Under the pieces are notes generated by a model, which was not told the DNA's origin, made no database searches, and saw nothing but the letters and a program-made list of their open reading frames with translations. Positions 61,779-64,000 of a DNA stretch of 64,000 nt are shown here, piece after piece; positions within the stretch are counted from its first letter, which is position 1; each line of letters opens with the position of its first letter. The stretch comes from Chitiniphilus shinanonensis DSM 23277 (GTDB lineage Bacteria; Pseudomonadota; Gammaproteobacteria; Burkholderiales; Chitinibacteraceae). The stretch is from the NCBI RefSeq assembly GCF_000374805.1, contig NZ_KB895340.1, positions 124,001 to 188,000 of the forward strand. Direction: 5' to 3'. Position numbers and translations under genes: made by a program.

Positions 61779-61939
61779 TAGGGCGAATCGGTACTCGAAT
61801 GTGGGATGCGTTGACCTCTGGGTCAGGCACATTGCTTTGTTGGGCTTCATTGGCGGGATTACCCCACATCGCCCGGCACGCCCTGCGCTGCATCCCGGCC
61901 TTCGCCCTCCATACCCCCATTGAAGTTCGATACAGCCAA
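61779..61939. repeat. R3 element, copy 2 (161 bp, one degenerate end)
   Basis: It begins TAGGGCGAATCGGTACTCGA. Read from the other strand it contains GAGGGCGAAGGCCGGGATGC and later CAACGCATCCCAC, both shared with copy 1. The end at 61939 is decayed (TTGGCTGTATCGAACTTCAA against TAGGGCGAATCGATATTCAA). It lies between dut and the PRC-barrel pseudogene. Confidence 0.75.
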
Positions 61940-61982
61940 ATCCACCAATGCTGTGAACGGATCAGCCCTGCCCGGCCCTTCG

Positions 61983-62352
61983 ATGTCGCACGGCAAGCAC
62001 GCATGGGCAATTGACCTTTGCAAAGGCAACGACGTGCTCAACACTGCCGGCGACGACCTGGGCGAGATCAAGGGCATCATGCTCGACGTGCAACGCAGCG
62101 GCCTCGCCTGCCCCGTGCGGTCGTTTGGCAGCCTCCTCGGCATCGGCAACAAGCTGGCTCGCCATCCCCTGGCAGGCGCTGGTGCTGGACACCGACCGCA
62201 AACGCTTCGTGCTAGACGTCAGCGAGGAACACCTGAAAGTCGCGCCGGGCTTCGACAAGGACCACTGGCCGAGCATGGCCGACCTGCAATGGGCGTCCAG
62301 TGTGCTTAACTACTATCGGTACTATCGGATGGTTCCTTATTGGCAGCGTTGA
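61983..62352 (+). pseudogene. PRC-barrel domain protein broken by a frameshift
   Basis: Two overlapping frames together read like one PRC-barrel protein of about 120 residues. Frame 1 gives LNTAGDDLGEIKGIMLDVQ and SFGSLLGIGNKLA up to about 62158. Frame 2 continues AIPWQALVLDTDRKRFVLDV, APGFDKDHWPSMADLQWA and YRMVPYWQR to a stop at 62352. Removing one C at about 62158-62161 would join GNKLA to AIPWQAL as in intact relatives. PRC-barrel proteins of this type are small stress-linked proteins. The gene is next to R3 copy 2 and a low-GC RHS locus. Sequencing error is the alternative explanation. Confidence 0.75.
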
Positions 62353-62418: not shown

Positions 62419-62889
62419 TTAGCGCAAAGGCCTAGATGAGCCAAAATCAGATAAAACTTTAGAAAAGAAAGCAGCAGGAATAATTGAACATTGAAGCCCC
62501 TCAGGATAATTCTTATACTCAAAGAAAGGCTTATCCAACAACTTCCACAGGAAAACCACTTCCTCCCCTTTAAGAAAAACAACAATTGAAAAATCGTCAA
62601 AAGAATCACCAAGCGACAAAAAATATTGCCCAGCCCCCTCAATTTTTTCCGATTTTATCAAATCATACATCTGACATACAGCCTCACCCCTTAAATAGTC
62701 ACCATCTAGTCTTTTTGAAAAAACACTCTTCAATTGCGCCAAAACAAGCGAATGAATACTCGTATCATCAAAAGTTCCGACATACTCACCTCCGAGCCAA
62801 AGTAGAACTCGTCCGACTCCACCAATCAAATCTTCATCAGAAGCAAGTTCTATCGCAAATATTTGTTTGTCGCCAAAAAGCAAGCTCAT
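62419..62889 (-). CDS. Probable immunity protein of the RHS toxin
   Basis: This 156-residue, AT-rich cytoplasmic protein starts at an ATG that shares one base with the RHS stop codon (TGATG), the tight coupling typical of toxin-immunity pairs. A TTG two codons further upstream is unlikely. It is acidic and mixed alpha/beta (LFGDKQIFAIELASDEDLIG, VLLWLGGEYVGTFDDTSIH, VVFLKGEEVVFLWKLL). I cannot name its immunity family. The role rests on position, composition shift and size. Expected function: bind and neutralise the toxin domain made just before it. Confidence 0.75.
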   Translation of the reverse strand: MSLLFGDKQIFAIELASDEDLIGGVGRVLLWLGGEYVGTFDDTSIHSLVLAQLKSVFSKRLDGDYLRGEAVCQMYDLIKSEKIEGAGQYFLSLGDSFDDFSIVVFLKGEEVVFLWKLLDKPFFEYKNYPEGLQCSIIPAAFFSKVLSDFGSSRPLR

Positions 62890-64000
62890 CACCAAGCCTT
62901 CACATCTTTAGGAATATTATTTGGATTAATATTGCGAGAAACTCCACTGGCTGTTCTTCCATTTGTCGACCCATTCCAATGCCAATTTCCATTTCCATCA
63001 TTCTGGAAGCGATGATATTCGGCCTTTTTACCACTACCAATTTTTGTCCACCTGTTTCCATCAGACCCCCGTTTACTATTTTTCCAAAGCTCTTCATGAT
63101 TTTGGGGGAGCGTACTTTTTGAATTGTTATATGGATTTGGCCCCCTGTTTGACGCATCATGATGACCTGGATTCTCATAGCTATCCGTGGGACATAGTCC
63201 ATCGCAGGCACATACGGTCTGTTCAACCCATGGCAGAATAGTATAAGTCTCGCATGACTCTACCATCATGCCATCAGCGCTACATTTTCGTTGACATTTT
63301 GCAAAATCAACAGGATTGCAAGACGTCAATCCCAATGGATCAGAATAGGTTATTGAATTCCCATTGGAATAGGAATATGTATTAACCCCCCCCACCAGCC
63401 CAATCGGATCGCTCTGGATATACCGCCCGATCCGCGGATCATAGTCCCGGAAGTAGTTGTAGTACCGCCCCGTCTCCGCGTCGAAGTATTGCCCCGGGAA
63501 GCGCAGGTTGTAGACCAGTTGTTGCCCGTCGTTGTCCGGGTCGGCGTTGGCGCTGCTCTGGCCGAACGGTTCGGCGATCGCCCATTCCCACACCACCTTG
63601 GTGTCGGCCGGGTTGCTCAGCTGGCGCGGGGTGCCCAGGTGGTCGGCCCAGGCGTAGTACACCTTGGGCGCGGGGGTGGCGGCCTGGACCACGGCGACCG
63701 GGAGGTTCTCCAGCCAGATGGTGTCCAGCCGGGGTTGGCCGCTGCCGTCGTATTCGCCCAGCAGTTGCCCTTGTTCGTCGTAGACGAACAGGGTGGTGTT
63801 GCTGGCGTTGTCGGTCTTCTTCACCCGCTGGCCGAGGGCGTTGTAGCGGTAGTCCCACCAGACGGCGCCGCTCTTGCTGCGCAGGATGCGTCCGGCGTTG
63901 TTGTAGACGTTGGCGCCAGCGTTGACCACGTTGCCGGCGGCGTCGTAGCTGTAGGTGCCGTTGAGGTTGCCGGCCACGCTGAGCAGGCGGTTGCTGTTGG
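62889..64000 (-). CDS. RHS repeat protein, C-terminal part with variable toxin domain
   Basis: The frame stays open to the window edge, so the gene begins beyond 64000. Visible are YD-type repeats (YSYDAAGNVV, YRYNALGQRVKK) and the RHS core end (YYAWADHLGTPRQLSNP, FPGQYFDAETGRYYNYFRDY, GRYIQSDPIGLVGG, SITYSDPLGL). After the conserved DPLGL, from about 63330, GC content falls and a unique C-terminal domain of about 145 residues begins. It has a Cys-rich stretch (CNPVDFAKCQRKC, TVCACDGLC) and ends HRFQNDGNGNWHWNGST and NNIPKDVKAW. Such RHS tips are polymorphic toxins used against rival cells. This tip may be a nuclease, but I cannot name its family. Confidence 0.88.
   Translation of the reverse strand, partial: NSNRLLSVAGNLNGTYSYDAAGNVVNAGANVYNNAGRILRSKSGAVWWDYRYNALGQRVKKTDNASNTTLFVYDEQGQLLGEYDGSGQPRLDTIWLENLPVAVVQAATPAPKVYYAWADHLGTPRQLSNPADTKVVWEWAIAEPFGQSSANADPDNDGQQLVYNLRFPGQYFDAETGRYYNYFRDYDPRIGRYIQSDPIGLVGGVNTYSYSNGNSITYSDPLGLTSCNPVDFAKCQRKCSADGMMVESCETYTILPWVEQTVCACDGLCPTDSYENPGHHDASNRGPNPYNNSKSTLPQNHEELWKNSKRGSDGNRWTKIGSGKKAEYHRFQNDGNGNWHWNGSTNGRTASGVSRNINPNNIPKDVKAW

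Follow-up and report, generated by a model that had tools for sequence, protein, structure and literature searches.

An AT-rich RHS tip of Chitiniphilus shinanonensis with an overlapping immunity gene: an uncatalogued toxin domain that probably acts as an RNase

What does the AT-rich tip of an RHS gene in Chitiniphilus shinanonensis do, and how did it come to sit on its core? The gene lies at the end of a stretch of 64,000 nucleotides from strain DSM 23277 (the window), in a genome of 4.15 Mb distributed over 42 contigs. It runs on the minus strand (62889..63998 and beyond) and is open at the window edge; the contig ends at window coordinate 64076, 76 bases beyond the window and inside the RHS core. 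Membership of the RHS class is clear from two profiles (79.1 bits against a cut-off of 32.5 for TIGR03696 and 38.5 against 22 for PF05593). The tip (TSCNP..KAW, 62892-63326, 145 aa) is composed of a Cys-rich linker of 48 residues and a domain of ∼97 residues (YENPGHHD...HRF...HWNGSTNG). The following gene starts on the last base of the toxin stop, base 62889 being common to the TGA (62891-62889) and the ATG (62889-62887). The GC content is 0.659 in the RHS core (63412-63998), 0.426 in the tip (62889-63346) and 0.387 in the immunity gene, for 0.653 in the entire window. These features bear out the original prediction of an RHS tip joined to an immunity gene by a one-base overlap, with low GC continuing through the second gene, a Cys-rich first half of the toxin (seven Cys) and a terminal block, HRFQNDGNGNWHWNGST, found at tip residues 105-121. 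Promoter- and terminator-like sites at the locus are about as many as expected. The favoured reading is an antibacterial toxin–immunity pair borne by an RHS protein, whose toxin probably cuts RNA as a metal-independent RNase of the BECR type; the identity of the two genes as toxin and immunity is much firmer than the RNase action. The features of the locus are given in Table 1.

Table 1. Features of the RHS tip locus, in window coordinates
Feature	Position	Strand	Basis
RHS core, C-terminal part to DPLGL	63327..63998, extends beyond the window as far as the contig end	-	TIGR03696 Rhs_assc_core E 2.6e-22, YD repeat, RHS_repeat PF05593 E 1.4e-9
Tip-exchange junction	63377..63396	-	Identity with the genome's other RHS core stops here
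Cys-rich linker, tip residues 1-48, 7 Cys	63183..63326	-	Orphan cassettes of two congeners (G177 and G208) have a 7-Cys region too
Toxin domain, tip residues 49-145	62892..63182	-	18 relatives, alignments, AF2 model
Toxin stop TGA	62889..62891	-	Shares its final base with the start of the immunity ATG
Immunity gene, 156 aa, acidic (pI 4.6)	62419..62889	-	Weak Imm42 match, family of 14, CdiI fold

The origin of the tip can be read from a second contig of the same genome (C16), which begins inside the same RHS core and bears a different, unrelated tip. The two cores are identical at 644 of 660 bases up to the junction. In blocks of 20 bases, 18-20 are identical down to 63,397 and 17 at 63,396-63,377, followed by 10, 13 and 9 and afterwards by 2-9; GC is down to 0.35 at 63,376. 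Because identity collapses there, the exchange point is near 63,385, ∼50 bases before the DPLGL codons (63341-63327) and inside the Rhs-associated core match. The composition break had been placed just after DPLGL (about 63330): the break itself stands, but its position has to be shifted upstream. Tip exchange, originally deduced from composition, is now backed by the unrelated C16 tip on a near-identical core, by the orphaning of the congeners' cassette at another RHS locus and by the occurrence of the same pair on CdiA and HINT carriers elsewhere. An intact RHS C-terminus of unchanged composition was not found in close relatives, the 9-kb stretches around a dut-like gene in G177 and G208 giving no match to the window RHS. 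This dut-like gene adjoins the window RHS gene, and in both congeners its neighbour is a coaBC-like gene; the names dut and coaBC are our own reading of the sequence. Given this different neighbour and the lack of an RHS match in the 9-kb stretches, the window RHS locus is not common to G177 and G208. The C16 tip (L002:697-1164, NKCNLFADTQYESAGYN..GDLVASGGHVGIAT) resembles by eye a peptidoglycan amidase of the CHAP/NlpC type, and has no Pfam match at E 0.1. Another contig, C38 (L003/L005, 3018 bases), carries two tandem RHS C-terminal cassettes of another core type.

The domain at the end of the tip has relatives far outside the genus. A genome-wide contig scan with a five-row profile and the patterns [FY][QF][ND]DGNG[NK] and [WF]HW[NS]GST[NS]G yielded 371 pattern matches, among which 18 encode a relative; therefore, the tip domain is not a chance product. 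With phyla taken from the record titles, several of which denote MAGs, these 18 loci belong to Pseudomonadota (nine), Bacteroidota (five), Streptomyces of the Actinomycetota (three) and a Richelia MAG of the Cyanobacteria (one). The Pseudomonadota records comprise Acinetobacter, Moraxella, Psychrobacter, Chelonobacter, Chitiniphilus and MAGs. A 19th locus is on a viral contig, and in PLSDB the domain is present on one A. baumannii and one Streptomyces plasmid. A toxin profile run on 398 genomes of the phylum returned the tip's own genome and one marginal match of 21 residues. Two records labelled Acinetobacter phage MD-2021a (CAKLQH020000004.1 and CAKLQF020000002.1; 232 and 306 kb) contain a large gene of the haemagglutinin/CdiA type with this tip, and look like bacterial contigs filed as phage.

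Conservation within the family is marked. In the 15 full-domain rows of alignment A3 (which excludes L019, L028, L029, L031 and L033 as broken, partial or near-duplicate), 17 positions are invariant, i.e. E51, N52, G54, H55, H56, D57, P74, S84, R92, R106, H116, W117, G119, S120, G123, G128 and P139; the scan patterns account for part of the constancy of the HWNGST block, but not for that of the other positions. Leave-one-out models recovered all 17 toxin sequences of the wider alignment A4 (L019, L028 and L033 excluded). The toxin carries a positive net charge in 15 of 17 members and the immunity protein a negative one in 14 of 14. In a Bacteroidota relative (L016:4004-4285), the toxin domain is acidic (net charge -5) and has no immunity-like ORF beside it. 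Aligned relatives from other genera show no such Cys-rich part ahead of the domain, and this part, used as a query, returned only itself in its own genome and nothing in plasmids. As it was seen only in Chitiniphilus, we read it as a genus-level linker lying outside the shared domain. In the Streptomyces plasmid protein, the domain comes almost directly after the HINT end (HNSTCPEYENPGHH), and this marks the true domain start.

The original prediction held that the domain could not be named, which proves right for Pfam and NCBIfam in profile scans of the tip. Pfam gave no match on the window tip. The MoxG cytochrome profile of NCBIfam reached E 0.03-0.08 (13-15 bits against a cut-off of 147.8) and was taken as chance. 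Among the 17 relatives, Ntox50, PCNP and MoaF each appeared in one member (E 0.033-0.073) and were set aside. Neither the tip nor the immunity protein alone matched PDB sequences up to E 10; the toxin profile met as best PDB chain 9ouf_A (E 0.52 over 52 positions), followed by sulfurtransferases from 0.62, none of them significant. The 9ouf_A chain is named Ribonuclease and reads ...FFWSGRTDG where the tip has ..WHWNGSTNG. In the open-licence PMC literature, no paper was found that gives the domain a name or an activity, and the available parts of PMC11630599 and PMC9990079 do not mention it.

The claim that the neighbour is an immunity gene gains support from both family and fold. An immunity-like ORF of >70 residues starts between -60 and +150 of the toxin stop at 15 of the 19 loci; it is lacking at L016, L025, L029 and L033, and L025 and L029 show by eye broken or cut remnants. 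From alignment A5, in which L028 and L034 were left out as near-duplicates of L026, leave-one-out models recovered 14 of 14 sequences (the window and 13 loci; weakest L020, E 0.0052), near-duplicates such as L023/L027 supporting each other. The AF2 model of the immunity protein has a pLDDT of 90 and matches 5ffp, the CdiI of Burkholderia dolosa, with a Foldseek E of 1.6e-5 and a TM of 0.61, and with a VIA Z of 11.6 over 137 residues. Lower matches are to Whirly-, PUR- and SsgB-type proteins (Z 5.0-6.3) and to 4ntq, the CdiI of E. cloacae (Z 4.9). The window protein thus shares a fold with 5FFP, as judged from the model, but no sequence match; the immunity profile against PDB sequences had as its best result SNF5 at E 0.43, which is not significant. 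Imm42 (PF15593) matches seven of the 14 immunity sequences weakly (best E 1.7e-5), all scores shown lying below the gathering cut-off of 27.2 bits (17.3 for the window, 25.8 for the best). In 369 genomes of the class, the Imm42 profile gave one match, below the cut-off, and did not recover the window's own gene. This match (L035:300-857, in G701) stands behind two other ORFs in a stretch without a toxin of this kind, and is possibly an orphan immunity gene. Imm4225, the subject of PMC9765294, is unrelated to Imm42.

One member of the family sits in a system studied by experiment. In the A. baylyi type strain (L022), the carrier frame has 3713 codons and the immunity gene follows 1 base downstream; compared with the window, the toxin domain is 57% and the immunity protein 25% identical, with leave-one-out E values of 1.1e-37 and 1e-20, respectively. 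Between the A. baylyi domain and its counterpart on the A. baumannii plasmid, identity is 97.9%. In A. baylyi ADP1, De Gregorio et al. (PMC6182759, available part) describe CdiA940, which is 3711 residues long and in which no toxin domain was recognised, and cdiI941 at 1 bp; prey without cdiI941 is inhibited in growth, and further A. baylyi genomes are stated, with data not shown, to conserve both CdiA proteins. A survey, in its accessible part, lists the protein as bay-D15, with an unknown toxin domain and a toxin module in common with bau-D15 (PMC6336857). Judging from carrier length, 1-bp spacing and stated conservation, L022 is very probably the counterpart of CdiA940, the strain compared being the type strain and not ADP1. 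Like the window, CdiA940/CdiI941 would have an immunity gene of the same family right after a homologous toxin domain; unlike it, the carrier is a CdiA of 3711 aa and not an RHS protein, the Cys-rich linker is missing and the immunity protein is only 25% identical.

Carriers elsewhere are diverse. Pfam was run on eight of them, each as far as the locus reached, and identified PT-HINT in L016 and L032, RHS repeats in L017 (27.0 bits, weak), L024 and L032, and haemagglutinin repeats in L022; it found nothing in L018, L020 and L021. By annotation, the PLSDB carriers are a HINT polymorphic toxin in Streptomyces and an ESPR-type extended-signal-peptide protein in A. baumannii. Hence the domain is common to RHS, CdiA and HINT carriers.

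What the domain does has to be approached through its fold. In the AF2 tip model, pLDDT per ten residues is 84-93 within the domain and 62-74 within the linker, and the five models differ (mean pLDDT 82.5 to 61.4). The best one shows three strands of at least three residues in the domain, whereas BECR has four. Foldseek returned nothing with E <= 0.001, viral models included. With VIA, 27 chains reach Z 2; among the 23 listed, nine cover the linker and 14 the toxin domain. The latter comprise 12 RelE, HigB, BrnT, CDI or MafB2 entries, with HigB2 and RelE entries repeated, as well as LolA and a Salmonella cap-filament protein. The best are 5t87_G (Z 4.2, 58 aligned) and 8hhj_B (Z 4.0, rmsd 4.0, 77 aligned), values to be read with the caution that Z < 8 can reflect a common arrangement and that the chain was verified as the toxin for 7m5f_C only. 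The 5t87 toxin, from C. taiwanensis, is presumably of the BECR type. In the VIA alignment, model residues 44-137 face 323-420 of 8hhj, and by eye H56 falls on His335 if the start is gapless; also by eye, GNWH at 113-116 resembles GTIH around His402. MafB2-CT is an RNase whose toxicity requires His335, His402 and His409 (PMC9970974, available part), and is structurally close to YxiD-CTD, an RNase of the Ntox50/BECR group (PMC12700104, available part).

RNase action of the window tip, as suggested by these models, is thus held with a little more than even confidence. The most serious alternative, which we consider unlikely, keeps the toxin–immunity pair but gives the domain a fold of its own and another activity, e.g. 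on DNA, NAD or protein. It agrees with the lack of any library family above a shown cut-off and of a significant fold match, with an Ntox50 profile test at chance level and with the many residues besides His that are equally invariant. It fits less well with the 12 of 14 listed toxin-domain matches to RelE, HigB, BrnT, CDI or MafB2 entries, and two separated invariant His sites together with a basic charge suit metal-independent RNases.

Ntox50 (PF15542; MafB2-CT 8HHJ and YxiD-CTD 9V8I) resembles the tip domain by eye in the order of an N-terminal His, a Y...K stretch and a GxxH near the end. One relative of the window tip scores 15.4 bits over profile positions 2-32, against a cut-off of 22.2; the window tip has no Ntox50 match in Pfam, and this relative is the one match among 17 members. 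In the 17 rows, the [IVL]P of the Ntox50 HxVP motif is conserved, but no row has a His three residues ahead. The hhalign probability was 0.3% against seven Ntox50 sequences, with 51 of 200 column shuffles as good, and 3.2% against a single one. Ntox50 as parent family was rejected as shown homology and kept as a lead. Searches for Ntox50 gave no match in 185 genomes of the class (where controls likewise gave none) and one in 240 of the order; a viral scan with an Ntox50 sequence gave nothing. A further comparison is offered by 7M5F, the BECR-type CdiA-CT of Serratia marcescens BWH57, which appears low among the structural matches to the tip (7m5f_C, Z 2.1; the 119-residue chain is the toxin). 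Neither the tip nor its profile has a sequence match to it among PDB chains. According to the available part of PMC8616854, it was likewise the structure of 7M5F that revealed the BECR fold, sequence similarity being undetectable, and the toxin there presents a basic surface to an acidic patch on the immunity protein. Most BECR CDI toxins with a characterised structure could be assigned to the fold by that structure alone (PMC9086364, available part). Finally, the partner of Imm42 is Ntox18, a predicted two-histidine RNase with conserved H, S and H in an alpha/beta domain (PMC3482391, available part). An H, S, H set also occurs in the tip domain (H55/H56, S84 or S120, H116), and is not diagnostic of Ntox18.

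Another doubt, independent of mechanism, concerns the state of the cassette. In an order-wide sample of 399 genomes, the tip is present in three, all of Chitiniphilus, and the immunity gene in the same three. In G177 and G208, the toxin–immunity cassette lies at another RHS locus, orphaned downstream of an RHS gene that ends in a different tip. The one-base overlap is retained in both (TGATG or TAATG), the toxin frame is broken at places that differ between the species, and the immunity genes are intact (63% and 54% identity). L019, a Chitiniphilus eburneus scaffold (NZ_SUMF01000002.1), has the same orphan cassette sequence as G177. By analogy, the window cassette could be a silent orphan, its tip detached from a full RHS gene and serving as a reserve or as orphan immunity only. 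Broken toxin frames beside intact immunity genes in both congeners speak for this, as does a window contig that stops inside the core. We consider it improbable: the window toxin has an uninterrupted frame, fused to the 250 residues of RHS core that precede it on the contig (395 residues in total), whereas the congeners' orphans bear just a short core piece.

A metal-dependent DNase of the HNH/EndoVII, GHH type, with GHHD as its metal-binding motif, is very improbable: G54-H55-H56-D57 is invariant in 15/15 rows and three HNH endonucleases figure among 50 listed viral-library matches, but their probability is just 0.04-0.08, no Tox-GHH or Tox-GHH2 Pfam match occurs among 17 members, and of the Tox-GHH2 signature, s[AGP]HH then HxxxH (PMC3482391, available part), the tip family has an invariant GHH but HxxxH in only two of 15 rows.

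For the favoured pair with a BECR-type RNase, a scheme can be proposed. The RHS shell would carry the tip into a neighbouring cell, where the ∼97-residue domain would be released and would cleave RNA in the cytoplasm. Candidates for base and acid are H55 or H56 of GHHD on the N-terminal side and H116 of HWNGS on the C-terminal side, with R92, R106 or K70 as candidate phosphate contacts. In kin, the acidic immunity protein encoded by the overlapping gene would bind the basic toxin and shield its active site. In favour of this scheme, H55, H56, H116, R92, R106 and S120 are present in 15/15 rows; against it stands L016, acidic and without an adjacent immunity gene. Delivery may rely on a type VI secretion system, as TssK-type genes are present in the genome; the RHS N-terminus lies beyond the contig end. 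Matches to T6SS_VasE, which we take to be the TssK family, number two in the window genome and two in each congener.

On a broader scale, it is tempting to propose, at about even odds, that the domain founds an unnamed family of nuclease toxins with an active site of its own (GHHD, R92, R106 and HWxGST), recognisable as BECR only from its three-dimensional structure, paired with a Whirly/PUR-like CdiI partner and carried by RHS, CdiA and HINT proteins across four phyla. If true, this would supply the missing mechanism for A. baylyi CdiA940 and the Acinetobacter D15 tips. The comparison already connects CdiA940, a contact-dependent toxin whose action the literature leaves unexplained, with an unnamed domain family that has its own conserved immunity partner and a short list of candidate catalytic residues. 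The locus and its relatives also form a clean case of one toxin–immunity cassette common to RHS, CDI and HINT carriers in distant phyla. The type of system is ordinary; the toxin domain is uncatalogued, and one relative is very probably active in experiment. Next to the locus, at 61920-62352 on the plus strand of the window, two overlapping frames seem to form one gene, as if frame-shifted, the first with a weak PRC-barrel match (E 0.079, below the cut-off).
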